Below, in pieces: positions 6,585-59,711 of a DNA stretch of 64,000 nt. Under the pieces are notes generated by a model, which made no database searches, was not told the origin of the DNA, and worked only from the letters and a program-made list of their open reading frames with translations. The stretch's first letter is position 1, and each line of letters starts with the position of its first letter. A program made the translations under genes and the position numbers. Source of the DNA: Lepus europaeus (lineage: Eukaryota > Chordata > Mammalia > Lagomorpha > Leporidae); the NCBI RefSeq assembly GCF_033115175.1, contig NC_084834.1, forward strand, positions 123,376,275-123,440,274. The letters are read 5' to 3'.

Positions 6585-6600
6585 TCTACTGAGATTTTTT

Positions 6601-6921: not shown

Positions 6922-6935
6922 TCTACTGAGATTTT

Positions 6936-7258: not shown

Positions 7259-7270
7259 TCTACTGAGATT

Positions 7271-19539: not shown

Positions 19540-19892
19540 TGAAAGGCCCCTACAAAACACACCGAACACCAGAGTAAGGGAAAAGCTTATGTCTCTACTG
19601 CCTCTCTGTGCACAAGAGGAACAGTAACCTGTACTAGGAGAACAGGTCTCATATAGCTTAGCAGAGATAAGGAAGTAAGAATGATAAATTCCACTGAGTG
19701 GGGTAAAGGCAATGCATATGGTGAGGCCATTTGGTCACCTGATTCTGATAAATCAGGCTGGACTTAGGAAACCGAAACATATCTCAGAGAAACCAAAACT
19801 TACTGTACAAGATGGTGACAGGGCCAGAGCCCAAGAGGGCCCCAGAGGCTTAAGATTGTGCCTCAGATAAAGTGGTGTCAGTTTCACTAACA
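19540..19892 (-). repeat. 3' LTR of the provirus
   Basis: Same TG...CA ends as the 5' LTR; the shared middle 'tatagcttagcagagataaggaagtaagaa' region is well conserved (19655-19683), while the TATA-like word and the AATAAA present in the other LTR are altered. Confidence 0.85.
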
Positions 19893-19905
19893 TTCCCATC
19901 TTTTG
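19893..19905 (-). other. Degenerate polypurine tract
   Basis: The minus strand immediately upstream of the 3' LTR reads AAAAGATGGGAA, mostly purine, as expected for the plus-strand DNA primer site of a retrovirus. Confidence 0.55.
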
Positions 19906-20299
19906 TTTTTAATGAAGCAAGTGTTGTATGAGATTAGATTGGCCCCCAATGCCTAGGAAGGGTGGTGGGATGATGACCTATCTTCTGGAGCCATTTCCTG
20001 CTTGCATGGGGAAATGAGTTACTTTCCGCTGGCATGGGGTGAGTCTCAAGCCACGATCTTCCAGGTAGGGAGCTGAGTATATCCCTGCAGCAACAATTGG
20101 TTGACCTTCTGGTTGGTGAAGGCATTCATTCATTTCATTATCACCTCCTACACACATTTAAACAGACATGGTAGTATAAAAGTCTGGGTGAGGACAACTG
20201 CCAATGGTCCTACGAGTGGCATTAACCAAGTGATGAGAAGACTCCATAGAGAGGGAGAGAAGAGGGGTTCTTTGGACCCTAGGCAGATTGTCCAATAAA

Positions 20300-21950
20300 T
20301 GTGGCAATCTCTTGGAGCATTTTAACATTTTGTTTTACCTGGCCCAATTGATTAATGTAATAGCAACTTTGTTCTCCTAGAAAAACACAAATTCCCTCCC
20401 CCACCTTTTTTTAGCTGTAATAAGGGCAAGTGCTTGCCTATTTTGTAGCGCTGCACCCACTAGTGAAGTGATCTGATTTTGAAGAACCTGAATGATGTCT
20501 GTGGAATTCTCAGTGGATCTGGTGACCTCCTCTCGTAGTTGTTGGAGTTGTTTTGGAGCTGGTTAATGGAGATAACATTGTAGCCTAGAGCAGTTCCCGA
20601 GATAACCACTGAAGAGAGGGAAGTTGTAAAGCTGATTTCAACCCAGACTGGGAGAAAGACTGCTTGTCTCTTGCAGGTAGTCTGTAAAAGGAACTCTGAG
20701 TATTCATATAATGTGAGGTGGGGGAAAGGCTCAACAATACACTTGGAGCAGGCTTAGAACTGTTGATACAGGTGTATAGTGTATAATTACAAAGAAATGA
20801 GGCTCCAAGTGGGCTACAGAAGGAAGCAGTGGAAGTGACGGTCATATTGATAACACAGGGAATGTTAGGTGGCATAAGCTCATTGGGTTGTTCTGTTCTA
20901 TTAGTGACCCAACACATTGCATCTTGACCTCTAGAATGTAGAAGAAGATGACTGATGGTTTTCTGAGGGTTGGGGATACAGGAGTTTACAGAAGAGAAAG
21001 ATTAGTGAGTAGAGTAGCTGCGATGAGAGGTTCCTGAAGAGCAGCACGTATGAAGCAGTGTTGTTGGTAAAGGTCAAGATATGTCTGGCAATAGTAATTA
21101 ACCTGGTGAGCCTGCTGGTTTGAAGGGCCAGAAGTCTTGATCAGTATTTTACATAGGTTGGGAGAGATACCTCTCAGGGTAATGTTTCTTGCGAGGGAGG
21201 CCTTTATTTATTCATATTTCACTCTCTATGTGGAACATTGTTGGGTAGAGGACTTTACGGGTGTAGAATTTTGAAATTTGTCTCAGAGCTTTATGGCCTT
21301 CTTGGTGTGGGACAGGAGAGATGCCAAGGTGGCTGGGTTAAAAGAGAGGGCAAGCCTCTGTTTCCATTTCCATGAAATATTGATGAAGAGATTTTTGTTG
21401 TCACTAGATAAGGCAGATAAAAGAGCATTCTTTGGAACAAAGTTTTTCAGGACTTACCACTGTTCTTGAGTCTTTTTGTTAGCTCTGTTAACACTGGGGG
21501 TGGCTGGAATAGAGATTTTGTCTTTGTAGGAGAGAGAATTTAGATGTGAGACAGAATAGCAGTGTGAGATGGTGCTCTATTTGCTAGGCCTTAGGATGTT
21601 AGGGTCTAAAGAAAAAGAGGTGGCTAGGTAGAGAAGACTTTAGAGCTGAGTCTGCCCAGACAGAGGGCGGGGGTGTTTGAAGTTGGGCTGGAAGAGCAGA
21701 GCACCACAAGGACTACGACTAGGAGTGCGAGGGATAAGAGGAAGCCTCTTTTTGGTGAAGTTTACAGTGTACTGTCTTGGCAGTTTGCAATGTTTTAGAT
21801 GCAGGGCTTTTAGAGTGACAAACATTTTGTTAGTCTTTCCAGTATTTTCTTTGTACTCAGGAGGAGAGAGTGGCAGAATGGAAGAAGAGGGTTTGGGAAG
21901 AGAGAGCCAGTTTGGGCTGCTTTTAGAGGGGGAGGGGTAGGGGAAGGGCA
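20300..21950 (-). pseudogene. Retroviral env remnant
   Basis: At 20585-20917 a minus-strand frame contains several N-glycosylation sequons (for example NMT, NYT) and spaced Cys residues as expected of the surface/transmembrane junction. About 20440-20560 in another frame gives a heptad-like, Gln/Leu-rich stretch followed by the conserved LQN-type motif of class I transmembrane proteins. The frames are not continuous and no intact fusion or membrane segment can be traced. 21640-21950 is proline-rich and less certain. Confidence 0.55.
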
Positions 21951-22389
21951 TCAGGCAGAGTGGACGCAGAGATGGGGATCTGGGGACAATTGTAGGGGTG
22001 GAGTTGTAGACAAAAGATCGAGGTGGAGTCTAGCAGTGGTATGAAGACTGAGACTTTTAGTTTGGAGAGAAGATCTCTGGCCATTAGGGGTATGGGGCAT
22101 TATGGCATCACAAAGAAGGCATGGGCTAGAGTAAGAGCTGAAGATGTAGGGAAGGAGTGGGGTGACTCTTGTTTTGATGGGGATATTTGAAACTCCTTTA
22201 ATGGAGATGTCAGAGTTTAGAGTGTGGCCTGAAAATGTTTTCACCCCCTGGCCATTGGCCCTGTCTTCCAACCCACTTTACCTCCCCTTTTACTATTTCT
22301 CTCTCAAGATGACCTGGTCCCAGCCACCCTGCCTACCTCAGGACCCCGTCCACTGTCAACCCATGGGTATGCGACACCAGTCACCCCAA

Positions 22390-24533
22390 CAGCATCTCAC
22401 CATCCTCCTATACAGATTGCTTCTTTGTCCTGGGCACAGGGGCCATTTTGACAACACTTAGGACAAAGACCCAGTGGGCCCCTAGGGTTGGGACACTTTC
22501 TGTCCCAGTGGCCCATCTGGCCACATTTAAAGAATGGACCCCAGGGACACTTGAGGTTGGCCAGAGGACTCCTGCATTTGGCTGTGATACTGGAGGCAGC
22601 AGGTTGTTGGAAGGCCTTGGCCAGCATTTGAAATTTGGCCTTTTAGGCTTTCTCATCCCTCCCATTGTATACTTTAAAGACCACGTCTAAAATTTCTGCC
22701 TGTAGCTAATGGGCCCCTCTTGAGCTGCTTTAACTTTGCCTTGATATCAGGGAAACTCTGGGCAAAGAAATGGCTCATGAGGAGGTCCCAACTGTTGGGA
22801 GATTTTGGGTCTAGGTTGGTGTATTGGAGAAGGTCTATGTCAGAAACTGTAGCAAAGCGGAAGGGTTTTCCTTTTTATTTTGAATAACTCTTCCTAGTTT
22901 ATCCTAATTTACAGCTTTTCTGGTAGATTTCTTAAGGCCCACTAAGCAAGTAATGAAATGATTTCTGGCCATTACGCCATTGGGAGAGTTGTGATTTTAA
23001 TTGGGGCCCTGTTCTGGGACCACATATACTCCTATGGAATGAGTGGAGTCAGTGTGATGGGTCTCATCAGCATGGAGATGAGTCTGTTCCCAAACTTGCC
23101 TTCACTCCTCTGGAAGGTAGGTATCAGAGAGGATCATAAAGACATTGTGAAAACTCAGATCATAGGATTGGGTTAGATATTGAAACTCTTTAATGTACGA
23201 AGCTGGGTTAGAGGTGAAGGAACCCAGTTTTGTTTGATTTGTGAGAGATCAGCAAGTGAGAAAGAAATGTGGACCCTGACTATGCCCTCTGCTCCCAGCA
23301 CCTCTCGAAGGGGCAATATGGAGGCAGGCTCCCTAGCTGCCTCACGAGAGTGAGGGACTTGGGGACCAGGCACAGGAGAATGGGGAGTCGAGGGCTTGAG
23401 GTGGTGGTGGCAGAGTGGGAACAGTATGCTGGTTTAGTGGAATGGGGGAGGGCAAAAGTTGGAGCGAGGACTTGGTTTGAGATAAGGCACGGGCAGCTGG
23501 GGGAGTAGAAATGGACAAAGGCTGGTTTTGAGATAAGGGTGAGCGGGAGATAGGGGGAGTTAGAAACAGATGCCACTTCCTAGAATTTCTGGGTGGGAGG
23601 GGAAGGTGTCAATGAGACAGAGCTGGAGTGGACAGTACTGGAGTGGATGGTAGGCTTTGAGGTTGTTGAGTAGGAGGTGACTCTGCTGGGAACTGAGCAG
23701 GAAGGGGCTGAGCTGGTGCCTGTGGTGGGGGGTAGAATGGTGGGGGCTCATCCACAGGATTGAACATAGAACAAAGGGGTTTTGTTCTGGCTCTGGGTCT
23801 TTAGTGGGAGCCTTAGCAGCCAAGAGGACCTGAGCTGGGAGCAGAGAAGGTTTAGACCGGAGATAGGAGGAAGCTTGAACACAGGGAATCTCCTTTCACT
23901 TTCCCACTCAGAGAAGTGATAGAGATCCCAGATAATGTTGGGGTCAATTGTGCCATCAAGCGGCCATTTGGACTGGTTGTTGGGTCATACATGGGCTATG
24001 GCTGATTACAAAGATGAGGCGATGGCATTCATTTGAGATTCAGGGCCAACTGGAGAGAAACGAGATTACTCAGGAGACAACCAAGAGGACAGTCAGACTG
24101 GTGGATAGTAGAGGTCAGACTGGCAGATAGCAGGTGCCTGTGAGATTACAGCAGTCCAATAAGGAGAGTAAGGGAGCAGAGGTTGGGGGCTGTCACCTGT
24201 ACCCACTAGGGTTGGGGACGTAAAGCCTGTAGAAGGGAAACAGAGGGTTGAGTCGTCACCCACATCTGCTGTTGCTGGGGACACAAAGTCTGTAGAGGGG
24301 CATGAGGCTGTAGAAGTTGTGGGGCCTCGTACCAGCACTTCAGGGCTAAGCTGTGTAGAACCACAACCTGTACAAAGCCACAATGAGAGAATCTTCCACC
24401 CAACCCATCTTATCTCAGAACTTTGAAGGGCCAGTGTGTGGATGGAGATCACAGAGCAGTCAGTGAAGAAAGCAGCCTGGAGGTTTGTTTTGTGGTTGGG
24501 AATCCAGGATCCCAAAGCAGCTCCGATGCCCAA
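22390..24533 (-). pseudogene. Retroviral gag remnant
   Basis: The region downstream of the primer site holds broken, proline-rich frames (23300-23820), a capsid-start-like stretch at about 23173-23290 (VHISFSLADLSQIK) and a nucleocapsid segment near 22440-22530. The nucleocapsid keeps a CCHC-type knuckle, FKCGQMGHWDRKC, in which the first Cys is replaced by Phe, and a second, degenerate one. Frames are separated by stops and shifts, so no Gag protein can be made. The order proline-rich, capsid, nucleocapsid is as in gammaretroviruses. Confidence 0.7.
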
Positions 24534-24562
24534 GGGAAAGCAGGGCCAACAGGAGCGTCTGG

Positions 24563-24580
24563 GTCCGAGTCACAGCACCA
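24563..24580 (-). other. Primer-binding site, tRNA-His type
   Basis: One base beyond the 5' LTR the minus strand reads TGGTGCTGTGACTCGGAC. From memory, this agrees with the 3' end of tRNA-His (TGGTGCCGTGACTCGGAT) at all but two positions. tRNA-His priming is the defining trait of the HERV-H group, supporting a relationship to that lineage. Confidence 0.75.
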
Positions 24581-24581
24581 A

Positions 24582-24880
24582 TGAAAGGGCACCACAAAAC
24601 ACGCCAAACACTGGAATAAGGGAAGAGTTTATTGTTGATCGACAGGGCTGCTAGCAGTCTGTACTAGAAGAGGTCTTATATAGCTTAGCAGAGATAAGGA
24701 AGTAAGAACAGTAAATTGCATTGGGTGGGGTGAAGGCAGCGCATATGGTTGGGCTATTTGGTCTCCTGATTTCTGGTAAATCGGGCTGGACTTAGGAAAC
24801 TGAAACTTAGTCTACAAGATGGTGACTGAGCCTGAGCCAAAGATGGTGCCTCAGCTCCGATGGCACTGATTTCACTAACA
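24582..24880 (-). repeat. 5' LTR of the provirus
   Basis: Starts TGTTAGTGAAAT and ends in CA on the minus strand. It keeps a TATA-like word (minus-strand tatataa at about 24677-24683) and a poly(A) signal AATAAA at 24628-24633. Collinear with 19540-19892 but about 50 bp shorter. Confidence 0.85.
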
Positions 24881-28979: not shown

Positions 28980-29808
28980 GAAGATTCAGAAAATAGAAAT
29001 TCTTCTCAAGTACAGAATCCCAATTCTGAGCAAGTCCAGGTAATACATTTTACATTCTCAACTGCAGACATTTGGGAATGATACTTCTGTGTCAGTTCTA
29101 GTACTGAAATTACTGGAAAATAACCAGAGACCTATTTCTTGGTTCTTATTCCCCTTGGTAGCTTTGGCCTTCCTTCTAAGACAAGTGAGTTTGCCAGTGT
29201 TCGTGAGTACCTGATCTCTTATGTCCCTGGCTGAATGGTACACCAGGAAACTTTCCTGTTTCAGGATTATTTTTTCTCATCCCATCTGTGTATTTTGATG
29301 GGTAAACCGTGACTATATTGAAAGACATGGTGAATTCTATTTTTCTTAGGTTGAATTCAGATTTTAGTCAGTTTTGTTCTTGGAGAAATTTCCACTGATC
29401 TAAGGTGAGTTCTTCAGTGTTTTTTTTTCCAAGTGCACCCGTGATGCTACAGCATTAATGTTGGAATCTATTTTGAGGTCTCCTTATGCACTTCCATGTC
29501 TTTGTCTTCAGCCTGAAAGGCTCTTGGTTCCACACCTATTTGTATGTTTCTGTTTACCCCATCAAATTCGCTCTTCTGAACTAAAAGAGGACATAGACAC
29601 TTTGATTCAGGGTGGAAGCAATCTCACAAGTGGTTACCTCAGTGTTGTCTATTTTATACCATGGTGGTTCCCAGCTTTTAGATAACAAGTAATGCCCATT
29701 GTGGCAACTCAACCTAACATAGACAAGAGCATCACTGACGTATTCTAGTGGTCCACAGTTCTGCTAAGACAAGTACTGTACCTTGTCAAGGCACTCAGGA
29801 TATATTTT
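28980..29808 (-). pseudogene. USP17-like pseudogene B, C-terminal half only
   Basis: Collinear with 61265-62000 of the intact gene: 'gaaattactggaaaataacc' matches 'taacatcaccggaacagcaac'; 'tttgccagtgttcgtgagtacc' matches 'ggttgccaggattcatggccacc'; 'ctttgattcagg' is identical in both (29604 and 61790); 'cagttctgctaagacaagta' and 'aaggcactcaggata' match the start of the YPECLDMRPYM-coding region. Frameshifts and stops remove all coding ability. It ends abruptly at the poly-T start of the L1 at 29809, and the missing N-terminal half is not found on the far side of that L1 (38.2-40 kb). Confidence 0.75.
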
Positions 29809-30251
29809 TTTAAACTTTTATTTAATGAATATAAATTTCCAGTATACAGCTTATGGATTACAATGGCTTCCCCTTCCCATAACTTCCCTCCTACCCGCAA
29901 CCCTCCCCCTCCCGCTCCCTCTCCCCTTCCATTCACATCAAGATTCATTTTCAATTCTATTTATATACAGAAGATCAATTTAGTATAAAATACTTCAACA
30001 GTTTGCACCCACATAGAAACACAAAGTGAAACATACTGTTTGAGTACTAGTTATAGCATTAAATCAAAATGTACAGTACATCAAGGACAGAGATCCCACA
30101 TCAGGAGCAAGCGCACAGTGGCTCCTGTTGTTGACCCAACAAATTGACACTCTAGTTTATGGTGCTAGTAACCACCCTAGGCTGTCGTCATGAGTTGCCA
30201 AGGCTATGGAAGCCTTCCAAGTTCCCCGACTCTGATCATATTTAGACAAGG

Positions 30252-32085
30252 TCATAAAAGACAGGGTGAGGATAGTAACCAATGATCCTAAGAGTGGCCT
30301 TAACCAGGTCTGAACAATTATACAGCATTAAGTGGGGAAGAGGACCATCAGTACACACAGGTTGGGAGTAGAGCCATTGGTGGTAGAGTAGAGGTTATGA
30401 TTACAAAGGAATGAGGCTCAAGTGCACTAGACAGGGTCTAGAACAAAGGACAGAGTCATTATTAGAGGAGCTAAGAAAGGTGCTGTCTAAGCTACAAGTA
30501 ATTTTTCTGATTGAGAGGCAAATAGAACCTGACAGAAGGAGCTTGATAATAATCTGTTGGGTTTTAGGCCTTGTAAGTTAAGAGGCCCAGACCTATCTAT
30601 CTCTTCACATGGGGTATATCCTAAGGGAGGTGTGAACCTCCTAGGGGAAGGCACTCTGTTGACTTTCATTACTTGGCTGGCCTGGGAGGAGAGCTGGCCA
30701 GGTAAAGGCAGGTGGCATCTCTAACAAGAAATTTACAGTTCTGCCTGCAATGTTGCTGACCCTACTTGGCCGTCCCCTCAGCTGCAGTGGTCACTTTGGA
30801 AGTTGGGCTGAGTGAAGGGCTTTTCAGCTTGGAGCCAATAAGATCTGTGGCTCTGACCTGGGCATCCTTCGACTCCAGGGCAGGTCCATTTCCAGTGATC
30901 CAACTCTTGGCAGAGCTGCCAGGGCTCTTCACAAGCTGACTTCTGCTGAAGCCCAGGCTTACCACATTGAAAGCCACTGCAGTGGACTGGCCTGTTGGGT
31001 CTCCTTGAGGGCAGATCACTGCACAGATCAGCCATTAATAGGCCTGCCACCCATTGCTTCTGATGCCTAGCTTTCTTTTCCTCCTGGTTTGTGTTAAAGC
31101 AGACCAGAGGATGCAAGTCAAGGGAGTGCCCGTGTCCCATCTCTAATCTTCGGTGGCCTGAACTACAAGTCTATAGTCACAGGCATGTTCTGTAGTAGTT
31201 TTTCTAAGGTAGACAATGCCCATGAGGAAAATTATATTCTCACTTTAAAACTTTCTTTCCCTTTGGTCTGAAAGGGAGGTTTTTTTTTCTACTTACTGTA
31301 TACTTTGCTGATTGCGATGTGAATCTAGCTATGAGATTATTAGTTAAGTTCTTATTTTGGCTATGCTATTACAGAAAAATGTCAGCCATCTCTTATAAGG
31401 TCTAAAGATTAAATTGTGCGTCCCACAGATTCCTTCATAATAGAATTAGTTCCCTACCTTGAAGAGAATAGAGAAGTGAAAGAACAAGTTGGGCTTAGAA
31501 TAGAGAAATGAGGGAGCAAGTCCTAGATCACTTGCTGACAATAGCAATATTACATGAATACTTAGCAAACCGTTTCAACCCTTAGATAAGAACTTAATAA
31601 AACATTTACCGGAAGGTCCAATGCCTTCTATAAATTTTAAGAATCATGTATTTGAAAACACATCTTAAATATCTAACATGGTGTAGTTTGTTTAACCAGT
31701 AACCTTAAGCACAACCATATAAAATGTTTTTAGTTTCTTTCTACCAACAAGTTTAAAACATATGATACACAGATTCAGGTCATACAAATTAAAATGTATC
31801 TTTGATTGATTTTAGCAGCTTAAATTTATGGACAATCTTATCTATGAGCCCTTTAAAATAAAACTCTTAATAAATTTCCCCATGTGGACATACAATATGT
31901 ACACACATATAACATAGCATAATAGACCAATATCAAAATCCAAAATATCTGGTTGAAATAAGATTCCTTAAAATCATGACATAACATAGACCAAATCTGA
32001 TCATTGTTACAACGTGATTATTCAAGTCTTTGAAAATAAGCACATAGTTAAATAACCCATAGCTCTTCATCTCCTCCCTCTCTTT
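30252..32085 (-). mobile_element. Retrovirus-derived insert in the L1 3'UTR
   Basis: Compared with ordinary L1 3'UTRs here, sequence matches up to 'agacaaggtcata' (30250) and again from 'cctccctctctttttcc' (about 32073); between them about 1.8 kb replaces about 0.5 kb. On the minus strand 30762-31140 encodes gag nucleocapsid-like sequence: QEEKKARHQKQ, then FQCGKPG, then QLCQELDHWKWTC, a CCHC knuckle whose first Cys is Trp. 30255-30420 matches env-side sequence of the provirus at 20165-20800 ('agagtggccttaaccaggt' versus 'cgagtggcattaaccaagt'; 'gattacaaaggaatgaggctc' versus 'aattacaaagaaatgaggctc'). The origin of 31150-32080 is not known. The same insert occurs in the L1 at 46462. Confidence 0.75.
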
Positions 32086-32313
32086 TTCCACTCTTAGATT
32101 TAACAGGGATCACTTTTCAGTTAAAATTTAAACACCTAAGAATAATTGTGTGTTAATTACTGAGTTCAACCAATAGTACTAGAACCACAACAACAACAAC
32201 AAATACTAAAAAGGATAAAGTATTACATTGTACATCTAAAGTCAGGACAGGAGCTGATCAGTTCATTGTTGCTTATAGTGTCCATTTCACTTAACAGGTT
32301 TCCCCTTTGGCGC

Positions 32314-35300
32314 TCAGTTGTCACCGATCAGGGAAAACAAATGATATTTTTCTCTTTGGGACTGGCTTAATTCACTCAGCATGATGTTTTCCAGATTCCT
32401 CCATCTAGTTGCAAATGACTGGGTTTCGTTGTTTCTTACTGCTGTATAGTATTCTATGGAGTACATGTCCCATAATTTCTTTATCCAGTCTACTGTTGAT
32501 GGGCATTTGGGTTGGTTCCAGGTCTTAGCTATTGTGAATTGAGCTGCAATAAACATTAATGTGCAGATGGCTTTTTTATTTGCCAAATTAATTTCCTTTG
32601 GGTAAATTCCAAGGAGTGGGATGGCTGGGTTGTATGGTAGGGTTATGTTCAGGTTTCTGAGGAATCTCCAGACTGACTTCCATAGTGGCTTAACAGGTTT
32701 GCATTCCCACCAGCAGTGAGTTAGTGTCCCTTTTTCCCCACATCCTCTCCAGCATCTATTGTTGGTAGATTTCTGAATGTGAGCCATTCTCACCGGGGTG
32801 AGATGGAACCTCATTGTGGTTTTGATTTGCATTTCTCTGATTGCTAGTGATCTTGAACATTTTTTCATGTGTCTGTTGGCCATTTGGATTTCCTCTTTCG
32901 AAAAATGTCTATTGAGGTCCTTGGCCCATCTCTTAAGTGGGTTGTTTGTTTTGTTGTTGTGGATTTTCTTGATTTCTTTGTAGATTCTGGTTATCAATCC
33001 TTTATCTGTAGTATAGTTTGCGAATATTTTTTCCCATTCTGTTGGTTGCCTCTTCACTTTCCTGACTGTTTCTTTTGAAGTACAGAAACCTTTCAATTTG
33101 ATACAATCCCAAATGTTAATTTTGGTTTTGACTGCCTGTGCTGTTGGAGTATTTTCCAGGAAGTCTTTGCCTGTGCCTATATCTTGCAGGGTTTCTCCAA
33201 TGCTCTCTAATAATTTGATGGTTTCGGGTCGTAGATTTAAGTCTTTAATCCATGTTGAGTGAATTTTTGTGTAAGGTGATAGGTATGGGTCTTGCTTCAA
33301 GCTTCTGCACGTGGAAATCCAATTTTCCCAGCACCATTTATTGAATAGACTGTCCTTATTCCAGGGATTAGATTTGGATCTTTGGTCAAATATAAGTTGG
33401 CTGTAGATGTTTGGATTGATTTCTGGTGTTTCTATTCTGTTCCATTGGTCTATCCATCTGTTTCTGTACCAGTACCATGCTGTTTTGATAACAACTGCCC
33501 TGTAGTATGTCCTAAAATCAGGTATTGTGATGCCTCCGGCTTTGTTTTTGTTGTACAGGATTGCTTTGGCTATTCGAGGTCTCCTGTGCCTCCATATGAA
33601 TTTCAGCATCATTTTTTCCAGATCTGAGAAGAAGGTCTTCGGGATCTTGATGGGTATTGCATTGAATGTATAAATTGCTTTTGGGAGAATAGACATTTTG
33701 ATGATATTGATTCTTCCAATCCATGAGCATGGAAGATTTCTCCATTTTTTGGTATCCTCTTCTATTTCTTTCTGTAAGGTTTTGTAGTTTTCATCGTAGA
33801 GATCTTTAACGTCTTTGGTTAAGTTTATTCCAAGGTATTTGATTGTTTTTGTAGCTATTGTGAATGGGATTGATTTTAGAAGTTCTTCCTCAGCCGTGGC
33901 ATTGCCTGTGTATACAAAGGCTGTTGATTTTTGTGCATTGATTTTATATCCTGCTACTTTGCCAAACTCTTCGATGAGTTCCAGCAGTCTCTTAGTAGAG
34001 TTCTTTGGGTCCCCTAAATAAAGAATCATATCATCTGCAAAGAGGGATAGTTTGAGTTCGTCCTTCCCGATTTGTATCCCTTTAATTTCTTTTTCTTGCC
34101 TAATAGCTCTGGCCAAAACTTCCAGAACTATATTGAATAGCAGTGGTGAGAGAGGGCATCCCTGTCTGGTACCAGATTTCAGTGGAAATGCTTCCAACTT
34201 TTCCCCATTCAATAGGATGTTGGCCGTGGGTTTTTCATATATTGCTTTGATTGTATTAAGGAATGTTCCTTCCATACCCAGTTTGCTTAGAGTTTTCATC
34301 ATGAAAGGGTGTTGTATTTTATCAAATGCTTTCTCTGCGTCTATTGAGAGAATCATATGGTTTTTCTTCTGCAGTCTGTTAATGTAGTGTATTACGTTGA
34401 TTGTTTTGCGAATGTTGAACCATCCCTGCATACCGGGGATGAATCCCACTTGGTCTGGGTGGATGATCTTTCTGATGTGTTGTTCCATTCTATTTGCCAG
34501 AATTTTATTGAGGATTTTTGCATCTATGTTCATCAGGGATATTGGTCTGTAATTCTCTTTCAATGTTGCGTCTCTTTCTGGCTTAGGAATTAAGGTGATG
34601 GTGGCTTCATAGAAAGAATTTGGGAGGATTCCCTCTTTTTCGATTGCTCTGAATAGTTTGAGAAGAATTGGAGTTAGTTCTTCTCTAAATGTCTGGTAGA
34701 ACTCAGCAGTGAATCCATCTGGCCCTGGGCTTTTCTTTGTTGGGAGGGCCTTTATTACTGTTTCAATTTCTGTGTCAGTTATTGGTCTGTTTAGGTTTTC
34801 TATGTCTTCCTGGCTCAATTTAGGGAGGTTGTATGTGTCCAAGAATCTGTCCATTTCTGATAGATTTCCCTGTTTGCTGGCATACAAGTCCTTGTAGTAA
34901 TTTCTGATGATTCTTTTTATTTCTGTGGTGTCTGTTGTTATGTTTCCCATTTCATCTCTGATCCTATTGATTTGGGTCTTTTCTCTTCTTTTTTTAGTTA
35001 GTTGGGCCAATGGGGTGTCAATTTTGTTTATTTTTTCAAAAAACCAGCTCCTCGTTTGGCTGATTTTTTGTAATGTTTTTTTTGGATTCAATCCTGTTGA
35101 TTTCTTCTCTGATTTTAATTATTTCTCTTCTCCTACTGGGTTTGGGTTTGGTTTGCTGCAGATTTTCTAGATCCTTGAGATGACTTGAAAGCTCATCGAT
35201 TTGGTGCCTTTCCAATTTCTTGATGTAGGCACCTATTGATATAAACTTTCCTCTTAACACTGCTTTTGTTGTATCCCATAGGTTTTGGTATGTTGTGCTG

Positions 35301-36139
35301 TTATCCTCATTTACTTCCAGAAAATTTTTGATTTCTCTTTTAATTTCTTCTATGACCCATTGTTCATTCAGGAGCATGTTGTTCAATCTCCATGTGTTTG
35401 CACGTGCTCTAGGGATTCCTGAGTTGCCAATTTCCAATTTCATTCCTTTGTGGTCTGAGAAGCTGCATGGTATGATTCTAATTCTTTTGAATTTGCTGAG
35501 ACTTGCTTTATGGCCTAGTATGTGGTCAATCCTAGAGAGGGTTCCATGTACTGCTGAGAAGAATGTAAAGTCCTTAGATGTAGGATGAAATGTTCTGTAG
35601 ATATCTGTTAGATCCATTTGGGCTATAGTGTCGTTTAAATCTACTGTCTCCTTGTTGATCTTCTGTCCTGTTGATCTGTCTATCTCTGAGAGTGGAGTAT
35701 TGAAGTCCCCCAGTACTATTGTATTGGGGTCTAAGTCTCCCTTTAAGTCCCTTAACAAGTCTTTTAAATAAGCTGGTGCCCTGTAATTAGGTGCATATAC
35801 GTTGATAATCGTTATATCTTCCTGTTGAATGGATCCCTTAATCATTAAATAGTGCCCCTCTTTGTCTCTCCTAACAGTTTTTGTGGTAAAGTTTATGTTG
35901 TCCGATATTAAGATGGCTACGCCCGCTCTCTTTTCATTTCTGTTGGCATGGTATATCTTTTTCCAGCCTTTCACTCTCAGCCTGTATGGATCATTGTTGG
36001 ATAGATGGGTTTCTTGTAAGCAGCAAAAGGATGGGTTTTGTTCCTTAACCCAATAAGCCAATCGGTGTCTTTTAACTGGACAGTTCAAGCCATTAACATT
36101 TAATGTGACTATTGAGAAGGAGTAACTTTGCCCTGCCAT
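32314..36139 (-). pseudogene. L1 ORF2 (endonuclease and reverse transcriptase), one frameshift
   Basis: Read from 36139: an apurinic-type endonuclease domain starts FSIVTLNVNGLNCPVKRHRL, with catalytic-region words LQETHL, GDFNTPL and SFSDHKG. The frame breaks in an A-run at about 35070-35091 and continues in a second frame of 925 codons to 32314. That part has the reverse-transcriptase domain with FADD near residue 350 (about 34030-34041), LTPILLKLF and [12 protein letters not shown], and the C-terminal region [16 protein letters not shown] with nearby Cys and His residues. The enzyme nicks target DNA and copies L1 RNA. One base-run change separates it from a full ORF2 of usual length (about 1270 residues). 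I give no corrected sequence. Confidence 0.9.
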
Positions 36140-36207
36140 TAGCCAAAGATACTTTCTAATATATGGTTTGAGATTCCTGTGATCTTTTGGTGTGAGGTTT
36201 CCTACCT

Positions 36208-37240
36208 TTACCTTCTTTCATATTGGTGACCGTGTTTCTGTGTTTCTGTATGTAACACATCTTTAAGCATCTTTTGCAGGGCTGGACGAGTGGCGACAAA
36301 TTCTTTCAATGTCTGTTTGCTGTGAAAGGTCTTTATTTCACCTTCATTTATAAATGAGAGCTTTGCAGGATATAATATTCTGGGCTGGCAGTTTTTCTCT
36401 CTTAGTACCTGGGCTATGTCTCGCCATTCTCTCCTAGCTTGTAGGGTTTCTGAAGAGAAGTCAGCTGTGAGTCTAATTGGAGATCCTCTGAGAGTAATCT
36501 GGCGTTTCTCTCTTGCACATTTTAGGATCTTTGTGTTTCACTGTGGTGAGTTTGATTACGACGTGTCGTGGCGAGGATCTCTTTTGTTCATGTTTATTAG
36601 GGGTTCTATGAGCTTCCTGTATTAGGATGTCTCTGTCTTTCTCCAAACCTGGGAAATTTTCTGCTAGTATCTCACTAAAAAGGCCTTCTAATCCTTTCTC
36701 TCTCTCCATGCCTTCAGGTACTCCTAGAACCCGAATGTTGGGTTTTTTAAGAGTATCCTGTAGATTGCTGACAGTATTTTTTAGATTTCTGATTTCTTCT
36801 TCTTTTCTTTGATTTGATTGTTTCCTTTCCTGTTCTCTGTCTTCTAAGTCTGATATTCTCTCTTCTGCTTCGCCCATTCTGTTTTTAAGACTCTCTAATG
36901 TGTTTGTCATCTGATCTATTGAGTTCTTCATTTCATTATGATTTCTCGTCACTATTACCATTTCTTGTTCCACTAGTTGTTTCATTTCATTTTGATTCCT
37001 CCTTAATATTTCATTTTCACGAGAGAGATTTTCTATCTTGTCCAGTAAGGATTTCTGTAGTTCAAGAATTTGTTTTTGGGAACTTCTTAATGTTCTTATC
37101 AATTTTTTGAGATCTGCTTCTTGTATTTCTTCGATCTCATCATCTTCATAATCTTGAATTGGGGTGTCTTTTTCATTTGGGGGTGTCATAGTGTCTTCCT
37201 TGTTCTTGTTAGCTTGGTTTTTGCGTTTGTTGTTTGGCAT
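36208..37240 (-). pseudogene. L1 ORF1 (RNA-binding protein), frameshifted in the C-terminal domain
   Basis: The likely start is the Met of MPNNKRKNQANKNKED (37240). An acidic N-terminal stretch is followed by a long coiled coil (roughly residues 40-150, Leu and Glu/Lys heptads, NRMGEAEERISDLED), then the RNA-recognition part (NIRVLGVPEGMEREKG). Relative to other copies here, a 5-bp loss near 36527 shifts the frame after KLTTVKHKDP, so the last about 100 residues (ending HQYERR before the stop at 36208-36210) are out of frame. ORF1p normally trimerises and packages L1 RNA. Confidence 0.85.
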
Positions 37241-38156
37241 GTTGGAGATATTTGGTTTCTTCACTGTGGTGTTTTTTCTTGTTACACTATGGCTCTATAT
37301 TAAGTGGACTGTCTGCTTTCAGTGGTGCCTTAGAGGCTTGAGATGAGTGTGGTCTGAGAGCTGTGTTTGGTTCCTCAGGGCTGAGGGTGTGTCAAAGATG
37401 ACACTCCCAGGTTAGGTGTGGTAAATCTCTCTTTTTTTGATTCAAAAGGGAAGTAATTCCGCACAGCTGAACATAATTGGAGGTAGTTAGCAGGCAAATG
37501 ATATACCCACCGGAGCCAGAGATCGGAAGCTCTTTCCCAAGGACCACACAGGGAATCTCTGCTGCCCTCAGTGTGGGCTCCAATTCTCCTGCAATCTCCC
37601 ACTGGATTGCCAAGTTAGATGCTAATCTCCTGTTATTTCACCCCTCCCCCCAGAGTCAGGTTTTTCTGCTAGGCTCAGGGCTGGTGCAGACCTGAGGTTG
37701 CCCTGCTTATGACGTATGTCCAAAATGGCGCCCGCTCTTTGTTTTGCTCGCCTTTGAGAGGTGAGCGGAGAGAGAGAAACTTGTGTCCGTATCGGTCGCT
37801 TTTTTTATTTTTTTCCTCTCTCTCTTCTAGTTAGCCTGGTGAACTTTTCCCCACGAAGTTTCAAGCCTCGTTCCCTCTAGCCTCCTCTTTCCGCTTGCCC
37901 GCTGGTGTCTCGGGCTATTGTGGTTCGGCTCACCTCGCGTTCCAGCGCTGGTGCGTTGAGTCTGCTGCTGGTGTCCCGAACTTGGGCTCCCACGCTCTCC
38001 ACGCAGGTACACTGTGAACCACTAGTTCCGGAAGAGTTTCCTCTGCTGTTTCATCCCCTACTCTTCCTTGACCCTGCAGTATCTCCACTTATATTAACCT
38101 GTCTCTCTCTCCGGACTAATAGTGTGCTCCCTGCCTATTCCGCCATCTTGCCGCTC
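37241..38156 (-). promoter_or_regulatory. L1 5'UTR (internal promoter)
   Basis: About 0.9 kb, GC-richer than the ORFs, ending at the L1 5' terminus. The first bases on the sense strand include CAAGATGGCGG, matching the YY1 site known to position L1 transcription start in humans. Confidence 0.7.
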
Positions 38157-38164
38157 TCTAGCTC

Positions 38165-38275
38165 TGACTATTGTTGCCACTTGCAGAGTGAACCAGAGGA
38201 TGGAGAATCTCTCTTCTTCTCTCTTTCACAGACACACAGGATGTTTTAAATAAATAAAATAAACCTTTAAAAGGA
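38165..38275 (+). mobile_element. 5'-truncated SINE 3' end
   Basis: Forward-oriented: 'gtgaaccagaggatggagaa', a pyrimidine-rich stretch, then 'aaataaataaaataaacctt'. It abuts the 5' end of the 8.3-kb L1. Confidence 0.7.
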
Positions 38276-41631: not shown

Positions 41632-43200
41632 TTTTTTTTTCAAATTTTAGTAAATGAATATAAATTTATGAAGTACAGTTTATGGATTACAATGGCTTTC
41701 CCCCCAATAACTTCCCTCCCACCCGCAACCCTCCCCTTTCCTGCTCCCTCTCCCCTTCCATTCACACCAAGATTCATTTTCATTTCTCTTATATATGGAA
41801 GATCAGTTTAGTATATATTTAGTGAAGATTTCAACAGTTTGCACCCACATAGTAACAGAAAGTGAAAAATACTCTTTGAGTACTAGTTAAGTACTAGTTA
41901 TAGCATTAAATCACTATGTACAGCACATTAAGTACAGAGATCCTACATGAGGAATAAGTGCACAGTGTTTCCTGTTGTTGACTTAACAATTTGACACTCT
42001 TGTTCATGGCATCAGTAATCTCCCTAGGCTCCATTCATGAGTTGCCAAGGTTATGGAAGCCTTTGAGTTCAACGACTCTTATCATATTTAGACAAGGTGA
42101 TAGTCAAAGTGGAAGTTCTCTCCTCCCTTCAGAGAAAGGTACCTCGTTCTTTGATGACCTGTTCTTTCCATCAGGATCTCACTAGCGGAGAACTTTCATT
42201 CAGGTAATTTTTTTTTGACAGAGTGTCTTGGCTTTCCATGCATGACATACTCTCATGGGCTTTTCAGCCGGATCCGCATGCCTTAAGGGCTGATTCTGAG
42301 GCCAGAGTGCTGTTTAGGACATCCGTCATTCTATGAGTCTGCTGTGTATCTCGCTTCCCAAGTTGAATCATTCTGTCCCTTTTTTGTTCTATCAGTTAGT
42401 ATTTTCAGACACTAGTCTTGTTTATGTGATCCCTTTGACTCTTAAACCTATCAATTGTGAACTGAAATTGATCACTTAGACTAGTGAGATGGCATTGGTA
42501 CATGCCACCCAGATGGGATAGAATTGGAATCTCCTGGCATGTTTATAGTTATACCGTTTGGGGCAACTCAGCTTGAGCATGTCCCAAATTGTATATCCCT
42601 TCCCCCTCTTATTCCCACTCTTATATTTAACAAGGATCACTTTTCAGTTAAGTTTCAACACTTAAGAATAACTGTGTATTGATTACAGAATTCAACCAAT
42701 AGTATTAAGTAGAACGGACAAAAAATACTAAGAGGGATAACGTATTCAGTTGTTCATCAACAGTCAGGGCAAGGAATGATCAAGTCACCATTTCTCATAG
42801 TGTCCATTTCACTTTAACAAGTTTCCTTTTTGGTGCTCGCTTAGTTGTCACCAATCAGGGAGAACATATGATATTTGTCCCTTTGGAACTGGCTTATTGC
42901 ACTCAGCATAATGTTTTCCAGATTCCTCCATTTTGTTGCAAATGACCAGATTTCATTTTTTAATGCTGTATATTATTCTATAGAGTATATATCCCATAAT
43001 TTCTTTATCCAGTCTACTGTTGATGGGCATTTGGGTTGATTCCAGGTCTTAGCTATTGTGAATTGGGCTGCAATAAACATTAATGTGCAGAAAGCTTTGT
43101 TGTTTGCCAATTTAATTTCCTTTGGGTAAATTCCAAGGAGTGGGATGGCTGGGTTGAATGGTAGGGTTATATTCAGGTTTCTGAGGAATCTCCAGACTGA
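41632..43200 (-). mobile_element. Truncated L1-Y inside L1-X
   Basis: A second L1 3' end (poly-T, 'aaattttagtaaatgaat', C-rich block) starts directly after '...tccatagtggc' of L1-X ORF2. It is a single-copy type 3'UTR but differs from that of L1-X at many diagnostic places. Its 5' boundary cannot be seen: ORF2 sequence runs on without a break past 43207, where the same 'tttccatagtggc' word recurs. Confidence 0.6.
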
Positions 43201-43206
43201 TTTCCA

Positions 43207-46200
43207 TAGTGGCTTTACCAGTTTGCATTCCCACCAACAGTGGGTTAATGTCCCTTTTTCCTCACATCCTCGCCAGCGTCTGTTGTTGGTAGATTTCTGA
43301 ATGTGAGCCATTCTCACTGGGGTGAGGTGAAACCTCATTGTGGTTTTGATTTGCATTTCCCTAATTGCTAGTGATCTTGAACATTTTTCATGTGTCTGTT
43401 GGCCATTTGGATTTCCTCTTTTGAAAAATGTCTATTGAGGTCCTTGGCCCATCTCTTAAGTGGGTTGTTTGTTTTGTTGTTGTGGATTTTCTTGATTTCT
43501 TTGTAGATTCTGGTTATTAATCCTTTATCTGTAGCATAGTTTGCAAATATTTTTTCCCATTCTGTCGGTTGCCTATTCACTTTCCTGACTGTTTCTTTTG
43601 AAGTACAGAAACTTCTCAGTTTGGTGCAATCCCAAATGTGAATTTTTGTTTTGACTGCCTGTGCTCCTGGGGTCTTTTCCAGGAAGTCTTTGCCTGTACC
43701 TATATCTTGCAGGGTTTCTCCAATGCTCTCTAATAATTTGATGGTTTTGGGTGATATATTTAAGTCTTTAATCCATGTTGAGTGAATTTCTGTGTAAGGT
43801 GCAAGGTAGGGATCTTGTTTCATGCTTCTGCATGTGGAAATCCAGTTTTCCCAGCACCATTTTTTGAATAGTCTGTCCTTACTCCAGGAAATGGTTTTAG
43901 GTCTTCTGTGTCTCCATATGAATTTCAGCATCATTTTTTCCAGATCTGAGAAGAATGTCTTTGGTATCTTGATTGGTATTGCATTGAATGTATAAATTGC
44001 TTTTGGGAGAATAGACATTTTGATGATATTGATTCTTCCAATCCATGAGCATGGAAGATTTCTCCATTTTTTGGTATCCTCTTCTATTTCTTTCTCTAAG
44101 CTTTTGTAGTTTTCATATTAGAGATCTTTAACATCCTTGGTTAAGTTTATTCCAAGGTATTTGATTGTTTTTGTAGCTATTGTGAATGGGATTGATCTTA
44201 GAAGTTCTTCTTCAGCCATGGCATTGCCTGTGTATACAAAGGCTGTTGATTTTTGTGCATTGATTTTATATCCTGCTACTTTGCCAAACTCTTCTATGAG
44301 TTCCAATAGTCTCTTAGTAGAGTTCTTTGGATCCCCTAAATAAAGAATCATACCATCTGCAAAGAGGGATAGTTTGAGTTCTTCCTTCCCAATTTGTTTC
44401 CCTTTAATTTATTTTCTTGCCTGATGACTCTGGCTAAAAGTTCCAGAACTATGTTGAATAGCAGTGGTGAGAGTGGGCATCCCTGTCTGGTACCAGATCT
44501 GAGTGGAAATGCTTCCAACTTTTCCCCATTCTATAGGATGTTTTCCGTGGGTTTTTCATAAATTGCTTTGATTGTATTGAGGAATGTTCCTTCCATACCC
44601 AGTTTGCTTAGAATTTTCATCATCAAAGGGTGTTGTAGTTTATCAAATGCTTTCTCTGTGTCTGTTGAGATAATCATATGGTTTTTCTTCTGCAGTCTGT
44701 TAATGTGGTGCATCACATTGATTTACTTTGAACATTGAATCATCCCTGCATACCAGGAATCAATCACACATGGCCTGTATGGATGATGTTTCTGATGTGT
44801 TGTTGCATTCTATTTGCCAGAATTTTATTGAGGATTTTTGCATCCATTTTCATCAGGGATATTGTTCTGTAATTCTCTCAATACTGCATCTTTTTCCAGC
44901 TTAGGAATTAAGGTGATGGTGGCTTCATAGAAAGAATTTGGGAGGATTCCCTCTTTTTCGATTGATCTGAATAGTTTGAGAAGAAATGGAGTTAGTTCTT
45001 CTTTAAATGTCTGGTAGAATTCATCAGTGAATACCTCTGGTCCTGGGCTTTTCTTTGTTGGGAGGGCTTTTATTACTGTTTCAATTTCTGTCTCAGTTAT
45101 GGGTCTGTTTAGGTTTTTCTATGTCATCATGGTTCAATTTAGGTAGGTTGTATGTGTCCAGGAATCTATACATTTCTGATAGATTTCCCTGTTTGCTGGC
45201 ATACAACTCTTTGTAGAAATTTCTGATGATTCTTATTTCTGTGGTGTCTGCTGTTACATTTTCTTTTTCATCTTTGATTTTATTGATTTGGGTCTTATCT
45301 TCTTTTTTTAGTTAGTTGTGCCAATGGGGTGTCAATTTTGTTTATTTTTTCAAAAAACCAGCTCCTCATTTGGCTGATTTTTTTGTAATTTTTTTTGGAT
45401 TCAAACCTGTTGATTTCTTCTCTGATTTTAATTATTTCTTTTCTCCTACTAGATTTGGGTTTGGTTTGCTGCAGTTTTTCTAGATCCTTGAGATGACTTG
45501 AAAGCTCATCTATTTGGTGCCTTTCCAATTTCTTGATGTAGGCACCTATTGATATAAACTTTCCTCTCAACACTGCTTTTGCTGTATCCCATAAGTTTTG
45601 ATATGTTGTGCTGTTATCCTCATTTACTTCCATAAAATTTTTTGAATTCTCTATTGATTTCTTCTATGACCTATTGTTCATTCAGGAGCATGTTGTTGAA
45701 TCTCCATGTGTTTGCATATGGTCTAGGGATTCCCGAGTTGCTAATTTCCACCTTCATTCTTCTATGGTCTGAGAAGCTGCATGTTATGATTTTAATTCTT
45801 TTGAATTTGCTGAGACTTGCTTTATGGCCTAGTATGTAGTCAATCCTAGAGACGGTTCCATGCACTGCTGAGAAGAATGTAAATTCTTTCTGTGTAGGAT
45901 GAAAAGTTCTGTAGCTATCTGTTAGATCCGTTTGGGCTATAGTGTCATTTCAATCTACTTTTTCCTTGTTGATTTTATGTCCTGTTGATCTATTTCTGAG
46001 AGTGGAGTATTGAAGTCCCCCAGTATTATTGTATTGGAGCCTGAGTCTCCCTTTAAGTCCCTTAACAAATTTTTAAATAAACCGGTGTCCTGTAATTAGG
46101 TGCATACACATTGATAATCGTTATATCTTCCTGTTGAATTGATCCCTTAATCATTATATAGTGCCCCTCTTTGTCTCTCTTATCAGTGTTTGTGTTAAAG

Positions 46201-46461
46201 TTTATGTTGTGTGATATTAAGATGGCTACGCCCATTCTTTTTTCATTTCTGTTGGCATAGTATAACTTTTTCCAGCCTTTCACTTTCAGTCTGTATGTAC
46301 CTTTGTTGGAAAGATGTGTTTCTTGTAGGCAGTAAAAGATGGGTTTTGTTCCTTAACCCAATCAGCCAATCTGTGTCTTTTAACTGGACAGTTCAGGCCA
46401 TTAATGTTCTCTGTGACTATTAATAAGTAGTAACTTTGCCCTGCCACTTGCCAAATCTATT
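43207..46461 (-). pseudogene. ORF2 remnant of L1-X
   Basis: Many frames of L1 ORF2: C-terminal and thumb region 43368-44018 (with an internal deletion after WRHRRPK), FADD-adjacent region 44118-44351, RT N-terminal and linker 44531-45633, endonuclease 45671-46283. Frequent stops. Ends at the ORF2 start, where another L1 has inserted. Confidence 0.8.
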
Positions 46462-49400
46462 TTCTTTTTCTTTTTTTAAATTATTTTTAATGAATATAAA
46501 TTTCCAATGTACAGCTGGATTACAATGGCTTCCCCATCCCATAACTTCACTCCCACCGGCAACCCTCTCATCTCCCGCTCCCTCTCCCCTTCCATTCACA
46601 TCAAGCTTCATTTTCAATTCTCTTTACATACAGAAGATCAATTTAGTGTATATTAAGATTTCAACAGTTTGCTCCCACATAGAAACACAAAGTGAAACAT
46701 ACTGTTTGAGTACTAGTTATAGCATTAAATCACAATGTATAGCACATAAAGGACAGAGATCCCACATCAGGAGCAAGTGCACAGTGACTCCTGTTATTGA
46801 CCCAACAAATTGATACTCTAGTTTATGGTGCCAGTAACCACCCTAGGCTCTCCTCATGAGTTGCCAAGGCTATGGAAGCCTTCCAAGTTCCCCGACTCTG
46901 ATCATATTTAGACAAGGTCATAAAAGACAGGGTGAGGATAGTAATCAATGTTCCTAAGAGTGGCATTAACCAGATCTGAACAATTATACAGCCTTAAATG
47001 GGGAAGAGGACCATCAGTACACACAGGTTGGGAGTAGAGCCATTGGTGGTAGAGTAGAGGTTATGATTACAAAGAAATGAGGCCCAAGTGCGCTACACAG
47101 GGTCTAGAACAATGGACAGAGTCATTATTAGAGGAGCTAAGAAAGGTGCTGTCTAAGCTACAATTAAGTTTTCTGATTGAGAGGCAAATAGAACCTGACA
47201 GAAGGGGCTTGGTAATAATCTGGTGGGCTTTAGGCCTTGTAAGTTAAGAGGCCCAGACCTATCTATCTCTTCACATGGCGTACATCCTAAGGGAGGTGTG
47301 AACCACCTGAGGGAAGTCTCCCTGTTGACTTTCATTACTTAGCTGGCCTGGGAGGAGAGCTGGCCAGGTAAAGGCAGGTGGCATCTCTAACAAGAAATTT
47401 ACAGTTCTGCCTGCAATGTTGCTGACCCTACTTGGCCGTCCCCTCAGCTGCAGTGGTCACTTTGGAAGTTGGGCTGAGTGAAGGGCTTTTCAGCTTGGAG
47501 CCAATAAGATCTGTGGCTCTGACCTGGGCATCCTTCGACTTCAGGGCAGGTCCATTTCCAGTGATCCAACTCTTGGCAGAGCTGCCAGGGCTCTTCACAA
47601 GCTGACTTCTGCTGAAGCCCCCAGGCTTACCACATTGAAAGCCACTGCAGTGGACTGGCCTGTTGGGTCTCCTTGAGGGCAGATCACTGTACAGATCAGC
47701 CATTAATAGGCCTGCCACCCCTTGCTTCTGATGCCTAGCTTTCTTTTCCTCCTGGTTTTTGCTAAAGCAGACCAGAGAATGCAAGTCAAGGGAGTGCCCA
47801 TGTCCCATCTCTAATCTTCGGTGGTCTGAACTACAAGTCTATAGTCACAGGCATGTTCTGTAGTAGTTTTTCTAAGGTAGACAATGCCCATGAGGAAAAT
47901 TATATTCACACTTTAAAACTTTCTTTCCCTTTGGTCTGAAAGTGAGGTTTTTTTCTACTTACTGTTACTTCGCTGATGGTGAAGTAAATCTAGCTATGAG
48001 ATTATAATTTAAGCTCTTGTTTTGGCTATGCTATTACAGAAAAATGTTAGCCATCTCTTTTATAAGGTCTAAAGATTAAATTGTGCATCCTACAGATTCC
48101 TTCATAATAGAATTAGTTTCCTACCTTGAAGAGAATAGAGAAATGAAAGAACAAGTTGGGCTTAGAATAGAGAAATGAGGGAGCAAGTCCTAGATTGCTT
48201 GCTGACAATAGCAATATCACATGAATACTTAGCAAACAGTTTCCACCATTAGATAACAACTTAAGAAAACATTTACCATAAAGTCCAATGTCTTCTATAA
48301 ATTTTAAGAATCATGTATTTGGAAACACCTCTTAAATATCTAACATGATGTAGTTTGGTTAACCAGTAAACTTAAGCACAAACATATAAAATGTTTTTAG
48401 TTTCTTTCTACCAACAAGTTTAAAACATATGATACAGAGATTCAGGTCACATGAATTAAAATGTATCTTTAATTATATTTAGCAGCTTAAATTTATGGAC
48501 AATCTTATCTATAAGCCGATTAAAATAAAATTCTTAATAAAATTTTCCCATGTGGACATACAATATGTACACATATATAACATAATAAAATAGACTAACA
48601 TAGCAATTTTAATAACAGCTTTTAAAATCTTTAACTCTTTTTTGTAAATTGCCAATTGATTTGAATTGCTTTTTCTTTTTAGTAACCTCAGTTAACCATA
48701 CTTTCTCTCAGTTGGTACTATTAATACATTATTGGCTTCATCTGTTTACAGAGCCATCCCAAAGTACTGAATACAATAGAAGTGGCTGGAAAAAGTTCAT
48801 AGGAACCTATAGGAGGACAGCTAAACACAGAACCAACAATGCTTTAGTTTTATCGCAGCAAATCATATATAACTGTGGATGACAAAAGACTTTAAGTCGC
48901 CATGTTTAAAATTATAAACTCATCAATCAACAAGAGGCACTTGCTTACTTCACAGTATTTTTGAAAGCACCTGTAGGATTTTACAAGTATTTAACCCTTT
49001 AGGCCTCTAGGGCTTTCACATTAAGATAACAATCATGTCTAGTAACACAAGATCATTAGACATTTTAATTCTCAAACATTTGTATTAATAGCATTTTCCA
49101 TTATAGAAACTTAAACTTTGGTACCATGTCACATCTTGACAGTACTTCTAACATAATCCAAATAGCCTGTTTAGTTGGTGTCTCTATAAGAGACATAGGT
49201 CCTTCGAATTTTTTCTGTTGGGCCAAAACTGGAAAAACCAAAGTCCAAGATTTACTGGAAATTTTAGAGTCCAGATTGTTTGAAACGTTGATTTTTTTGA
49301 ATGCCTGTGAAAAATGCCAAGAAGGCTCAAAATCCAAAATATCTGGTTGAAATAAGATTCCTTAAAATCATGACATAACATAGACCAAATTTGATCATTG

Positions 49401-49565
49401 TTACAAGGTGATTATTCAAATCTTCGAAAATAAGCACATATTTAAATAACCCATAGCTCTTAATAAAAATTCAGCTGTTTTTGAACAATTAGAATTTAAC
49501 AGACATCAAGAGAACATAATAGATGACTTTAACACATTGCTTTAACAGAGCATCAGAGTTTAATT
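46462..49565 (-). mobile_element. 5'-truncated L1-5 with the retrovirus-bearing 3'UTR
   Basis: Inserted between ORF2 and ORF1 of L1-X. Starts with poly-T and the L1 3' end, then follows the 3'UTR of the L1 at 29809 almost base for base, including the retroviral block (about 46915 onward). The gag-like segment 47428-47808 is here one open frame of 126 codons (two C residues more than the other copy at about 47620). It carries an additional about 730 bp at 48597-49327 that is missing from the other copy. Flank words tctattttc (left) and tctatgtc (right, about 49575) may be a decayed target duplication. Confidence 0.75.
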
Positions 49566-55305: not shown

Positions 55306-55389
55306 TGCACTCCATTTGCCAAAGATATTTTCTAACATATGCTTTGAGATTCCTGTGATCTTTTTCTGTGAGGTTTTGTTCCTTTACCT

Positions 55390-59703: not shown

Positions 59704-59711
59704 GGCTATAC

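Follow-up and report, generated by a model that had tools for sequence, protein, structure and literature searches.

The 3′UTRs of L1 retrotransposons vary between subfamilies. SVA and LAVA elements are non-autonomous composites mobilized by L1, and their 3′ part carries env and LTR sequence of an endogenous retrovirus (ERV), the HERV-K SINE-R. To our knowledge, there is no case of an SVA or LAVA feeding back into an autonomous L1. Non-homologous UTR replacement is described for mouse, horse, and rat L1s, along with mosaic elements that carry a young 3′ end on an older 5′ end (PMC3600994, PMC5872511). The half-L1, or HAL1, is defined as an element with ORF1 only, poly(A), and target-site duplications (TSDs) that relies on the reverse transcriptase and endonuclease of L1 (PMC5322556). 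A rabbit L1 is named in PMC2590599. No lagomorph L1 with retroviral sequence appears among the open-access titles and abstract openings listed, and Repbase, Dfam, or other papers may have one.

The window analyzed here is a 64,000-nucleotide stretch of the Lepus europaeus genome (NC_084834.1, positions 123,376,275 to 123,440,274 of the forward strand), and coordinates refer to the window unless another locus (L plus a number) is named. It contains an L1 whose 3′UTR has been altered by a block of foreign sequence. The block-carrying L1 is a real, well-supported repeat family that is retroviral in part.

An L1 with an altered 3′UTR

Self-comparison of the window showed that the block is common to two L1-related copies, A and B, and to no other L1 in the window.

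29805-38156 (-): full-length L1 copy A, running from its 5′ end at about 38156 to its 3′ end at 29805 (window self-comparison)
30256-32070 (-): block inside the 3′UTR of A, 1815 bp, approximately element-sense 6087-7901, in L1 sense; similarity to ordinary L1s ends at 32068-32071 and at about 30256
29805-30256 (-): L1 tail of A, comprising the 3′UTR end, AATAAA, and poly(A), about 82% to ordinary L1s
46466-49581 (-): copy B, consisting of the block and L1 tail of an ORF2-less element (self-comparison, relatives)

Pfam identified ORF1 of copy A, the one copy in which it was tested, as Transposase_22 (PF02994, E 1e-14) and pieces of its ORF2 as RVT_1 (PF00078, E 9e-48) and Exo_endo_phos (PF03372, E 1e-24). 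The ORF2 frame is broken between the endonuclease and the reverse transcriptase, and ORF2 lies in two overlapping frames. At the block position, the ordinary L1s in the window carry different sequence about 0.5 kb long (42102-42595 and 50436-50938). The original prediction, made from the letters of the window, had both copies replacing this 0.5 kb of 3′UTR with the block; this holds for the 1.8 kb of A and fails for B, where the block is longer and ORF1 lies upstream. That the two copies share the block was borne out by identities of 93.8% between A 29805-31933 and B 46471-48601 and 95.7% between A 31933-32070 and B 49327-49464. An L1 tail and poly(A) terminate both copies; the poly(A) signal is AATAAA in A, and B reads AATAAT at the same place. 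TSDs were sought around A and around B and none was found. No coding role for the block is apparent, and it rides as 3′UTR upstream of a conserved L1 tail.

The 5′ end of copy A adjoins a fragment at 38157-38260, presumably a C-repeat-like SINE, with no TSD there; given this TSD-less 5′ end, A perhaps inserted with deletion of its target. The sequence abutting its 3′ end (29125-29802) is a diverged relative, at 66% DNA identity, of a 547 aa open stretch at 61300-62940 (-) that has a UCH domain (E 4.5e-55). USP36 is the nearest solved structure to this stretch, which we take to be USP17/DUB-like. Elsewhere in the window, 3524-4300 (+) is an open C2H2 zinc-finger stretch (PF13465, E 7e-46) with a repeat step of 84 bp.

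Retroviral content of the block

A decayed provirus in the same window served as the comparison for the block.

19540-24809 (-): decayed class I provirus, terminal repeats 77%, env at 20165-20897, nucleocapsid-like sequence at about 22400-22642
30309-30511 (-): segment of env origin, from the C-terminal portion of the surface subunit; aligns to provirus 20897-20695 at 60% across 206 bases (E 2e-10)
30245-30344 (-): segment of env origin, membrane anchor; aligns to provirus 20263-20165 at 70% across 102 bases (E 1e-7)
30781-31170 (-): 130 aa open stretch with a degraded nucleocapsid-like motif read by eye, second knuckle W-x2-C-x4-H-x4-C, weak matches
31171-32070 (-): A+T-rich part of the block, matching neither the provirus DNA, nor Pfam (pieces tried), nor Rfam

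The provirus env stretch matched TLV_coat with E-values of 0.001 and 0.0006, neither of which reaches Pfam's own cut-off, and env motifs were recognized by eye; ten open pieces of the provirus gave no lead in Pfam. Its family occupies at least 39 other loci in the genome at 72-81% (715 candidates). A separate PF02093 profile search of the genome gave 150 scored matches, all 150 of them above the cut-off and many lying in long open frames.

The predicted collinearity of env-side sequence with the provirus, in L1 sense, was confirmed by the two DNA matches listed above, and the best match in the reversed-sequence control had an E of 0.17. Both segments are DNA-collinear with all four ERV family copies compared (the window provirus, L047, L048, and L049). 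The membrane-anchor stretch of B matches L048 at 88.7% over 53 bases (E 8e-9). Provirus 20694-20264, some 430 bp of env between the two segments, has no counterpart in the block. The join between env and the L1 tail shares the bases TAT (30254-30256), and the lowest ten or so bases of 30245-30344 are L1 tail. Two open pieces of the block scored 31.6 and 29.3 bits against env at the protein level, compared with maxima of 22.7 and 24.3 bits in 300 residue shuffles each. A third env piece (B 46826-46993) scored 23.5 bits, within its shuffle range, and a fourth (A 30245-30394) gave no match at E 0.1. The possibility, raised alongside the original prediction, that the block has no significant retroviral similarity is set aside by the DNA-level significance of env. 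By alignment, a retroviral origin is shown for the two env segments, about 255 of the 1815 bp.

The predicted gag nucleocapsid fared less well. The motif is there by eye, and its one-knuckle pattern occurred in 4 of 2000 shuffles; the two-knuckle pattern as written was not found in the block itself. The stretch matches the provirus knuckle weakly, at E 0.27 when searched against the whole window and at 0.003-0.02 against smaller subjects. A PDB search gave a best E of 1.1, no protein-database candidate was returned, and Pfam placed none of ten block pieces in a family above its cut-off. L050 and L051, inspected for nucleocapsid, yielded other frames, among them, in L050, a stretch that looks integrase-like by eye. 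The gag nucleocapsid content of the block is suggestive only.

About 1.2 kb of the block (31171-32070 plus 30512-30780) is without a matching source. No LTRs of its own bound the block; its bounds are the L1 tail on one side and L1 3′UTR or ORF1 on the other, and the two ends share no repeat. The block may be mainly non-retroviral, a host RNA or an old L1 3′UTR with a short env scrap, which is quite possible though not the probable case and is compatible with either order of events considered below. The small DNA-level match to the ERV (about 255 of 1815 bp) speaks for such an origin, as does the lack of a significant match for the nucleocapsid-like part and the other 1.2 kb; the provirus-like order of gag-like then env sequence on the same strand, and the rarity of the knuckle pattern in shuffles, speak against it.

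Copy B as part of an ORF2-less element

The sequence upstream of the block in B is L1 ORF1, not ORF2. The features of this locus are as follows.

48602-49326 (-): B-type-only segment of the block, about 725 bp, missing in A-type (self-comparison, genome matches)
49582-49740 (-): end of ORF1 fused directly to the block, also a piece of host L1 E; junction at element-sense 1989
41635-46465 (-): host L1 E, ORF2 and 3′ end, interrupted by B in the ORF1/ORF2 spacer
57393-59705 (-): host L1 E, 5′ part with 5′UTR and ORF1, severed from the remainder by L1 C; contains a SINE-like repeat
49743-57391 (-): L1 C, ordinary and block-free, inside ORF1 of E (self-comparison)

The block of B has a second stretch missing in A, 117 bp at 49465-49581. 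The best 40 of 1965 first-look candidates for the 725 bp segment were scored genome-wide, and 40 of 40 matched at 95-100%; first-look candidate counts, here and below, are not copy counts. Twelve loci (L029-L040, L029 being window copy B) were cut out from these 40 scored matches. The junction between ORF1 and the block is identically placed in 12/12 of them and likewise in L020. The one full-length B-type element, L020 4563-9691 (5.1 kb), consists of L1 5′UTR, ORF1, block, and L1 tail, and ORF2 is absent. This single copy has a poly(A) tail and, by eye, a 16 bp TSD, and its uninterrupted 363 aa ORF1 contains the two domains of L1 ORF1. The 363 aa ORF1 is open in just two of eight B-types examined, and constraint on the B-type ORF1 rests on that one pair, with an estimated dN/dS of 0.45.

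The structure of L020 and the common junction in 12/12 loci identify B as a truncated copy of an ORF2-less element. The B-type is half-L1-like, with 5′UTR, ORF1, the longer block, and the L1 tail. The original view of A and B as two insertions of one L1 lineage is accordingly rejected, because ORF1 and not ORF2 precedes the block of B with a junction common to 12/12 loci.

Copy B occupies the ORF1/ORF2 spacer of host L1 E, which is made up of 57393-59705, 49582-49740, and 41635-46465. The repeat AAAGACCTTTCAC flanks L1 C on either side (by eye). None of six informative ORF1 sites in E at the B locus is B-type, and five B-like sites lie past the junction. E is disfavored as founder of the B-type family: it is 87-88% to B-types over a long ORF1 piece, the block of B is about 94% to B-type blocks, and L020 is closer to A, at 92%.

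In a further comparison with the genome, 10 of 40 matches, the window included, span an L1 tail adjoining ORF2. Four of the nine such loci outside the window were inspected, and the L1 tail is inserted in the spacer in 4/4. Two block-bearing spacer insertions, L041 and L042, are flanked on each side by 12-13 bp from element-sense 2000-2013. The ORF1/ORF2 spacer is a recurrent L1 insertion target, seen in four loci besides the window. Within their 3′UTR, block-free L1 tails at 7273-8466, 49745-50925, and L043 contain an internal duplication about 165 bp long.

Copies across the genome

The best 40 of 3478 first-look candidates for the block itself were scored, and all matched at 98-100%, one of them being the window. 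Twenty of the 39 other loci were examined; each aligns to A in a single alignment from ORF2 or the 3′UTR through the block, and their 3′ ends coincide within 6 bp (L021 also has an inverted 5′ piece). Every inspected block match in this assembly (20/20) is thus joined to an L1 3′ end. A-type elements outside the window consist of ORF2, a short ordinary 3′UTR, the block, and the L1 tail, the 5′UTR and ORF1 being known only from A itself. Seven of the 20 loci are 5′-truncated at differing points, and the remaining 13 extend to, or almost to, the limit of the sequence examined. TSDs of 10-15 bp accompany four of the seven truncated copies (L021, L022, L023, where it overlaps the poly(A), and L027); none was found when sought in L016, L019, and L028.

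The 3′ flanks of 19 loci, A, and B (21 compared, L024 being left out for tail identity below the 96% threshold) contain no similar pair at E 1e-5. The A-type copies are separate insertions, as indicated by flanks without pairwise similarity, differing truncations, and TSDs. Dissimilar flanks speak against segmental duplication, including a single duplication that would account for A and B. The expectation that A and B are independent insertions with proper 3′ ends stands as to L1 tail, poly(A), and unrelated flanks, and falls short in that neither has a TSD. Poly(A) ends, 5′ truncations, and TSDs show that A-type and B-type elements both spread by L1 retrotransposition.

Trees were built with L001-L008 excluded as duplicates. 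All 21 A-type rows fall into a single clade (100/100) nested among the B-types in the block tree. The 5′-truncated copy L014_5854, which retains the 725 bp, is sister to the A-type (96/85), and the deeper forks are weak (77/68). The ORF2 tree groups 18 carriers (99/98) against six other rows, including two parts of L1 C. The 3′ part of ORF2 is open in 14/18 carriers (three of which, L016, L023, and L028, are visible over only 0.6-0.7 kb) versus 0/6 of the other rows. Carriers L024 and L028 have a mosaic ORF2, more diverged upstream of about element-sense 5480 and with the same young 3′ end. The single clade in both trees, the differing truncations, and the TSDs in 4/7 copies uphold the central claim of the original prediction, that an L1 lineage acquired retroviral sequence and continued to retrotranspose.

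Mean CpG-excluded distances are 0.0096 within A-type, 0.0364 within B-type, and 0.0362 between them (21 A and 11 B rows; the window copy L029 and L014_5854 were left out). Because both groups were sampled from the best-scored matches, the distances lean young and older intermediates may have escaped notice. The larger distance among B-types than among A-types suggests that the B-types spread earlier.

Order of events

A history that starts with the half-L1 is moderately favored: spacer insertion of a tail/retroviral chimera would have made the B-type, and the young A-type would have taken the block later. Reverse transcription of an L1 tail may have switched template at TAT onto a defective retroviral transcript, giving tail plus env scrap. 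This chimera would have entered an L1 at its hot spot in the ORF1/ORF2 spacer, with a nick near element-sense 2000 (the B-type junction is at 1989). The poly(A) signal of the inserted tail would then end transcripts early, and the resulting ORF1-block-tail RNA, mobilized in trans by ORF2p of other L1s, would be the B-type. At a later stage, a reverse transcriptase copying B-type RNA may have passed through the tail and part of the block before switching to the 3′UTR of an ordinary L1 RNA. A deletion of about 725 bp accompanying or following that switch would yield the A-type, the younger lineage.

The order with the B-type first is suggested by an A-B distance about equal to the B-B distance, by the position of the A-type clade among B-types, and by ORF1 upstream of the block in 12/12 loci with the 725 bp. 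The spacer hot spot enters the scenario because of the L1 tail in 4/4 inspected spacer loci and the duplicated 12-13 bp of L041 and L042. No founder locus was found. Several observations count against the order: the weak deeper forks, an ORF1 open in only 2/8 B-types, the non-B-type sites of E, and the lack of TSDs at A and B. L014_5854, with its 725 bp, also counts against it and could be an autonomous ancestor; its truncation hides the gene upstream.

An autonomous L1 could instead have gained the block in its 3′UTR first. A 5′-truncated copy would then have entered the spacer of another L1, early polyadenylation would have produced the B-type, and the A-type would be a shortened descendant. 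L041 and L042 are nested block-bearing tails of just such a kind with short target repeats, and L014_5854 retains the 725 bp as sister to the A-type. This course of events is nevertheless rather unlikely, since ORF1 is upstream in all 12 examined loci with the 725 bp and the A-type is no farther from B-types than B-types are from one another. Chance resemblance, segmental duplication, or an ordinary L1 3′UTR is extremely improbable: L1 3′UTRs do differ among subfamilies, but 40/40 scored matches, 20/20 loci with one 3′ end, unrelated flanks, and the reversed control at E 0.17 stand against it.

Discussion

The half-L1-first history can be extended into a broader proposal, unlikely as a whole, in which an env scrap acquired by template switching founds a half-L1 whose 3′ end re-equips an autonomous L1 and so launches a young lineage. 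The spacer would repeatedly make half-L1s, and the foreign 3′UTR would putatively aid escape from host repression. If true, a half-L1 that donates its 3′ end to an autonomous L1 is a parasite of a parasite that re-equips its host element. The family is a case of an L1 that acquired retroviral sequence at its 3′ end and then multiplied. It also suggests a route to half-L1s in which one L1 inserts between ORF1 and ORF2 of another and transcripts are then polyadenylated early.

SVA and LAVA resemble the B-type in being L1-mobilized non-autonomous composites with ERV env in the 3′ part; unlike the B-type, they are not founded on L1 ORF1. The class I gammaretrovirus-like ERV family of 19540-24809 has env segments that are DNA-collinear with the block in 4/4 copies. 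The block differs from it in lacking about 430 bp of env, ending in L1 sequence, and having no LTR seen, and it is not a provirus. The B-type is like HAL1, as defined in PMC5322556, in its ORF1, missing ORF2, poly(A), and TSD (in L020). It differs from that definition by a retroviral fragment between ORF1 and the tail and a junction at the spacer hot spot. The A-type is like the swapped-UTR L1s of mouse, horse, and rat, which are also lineages with a replaced UTR and mosaic structure, and the ORF2 mosaics of L024 and L028 resemble the kind reported in other mammals (PMC3600994). The changes described there concern 5′UTR recruitment, whereas the hare block changes the 3′UTR and is partly retroviral env.
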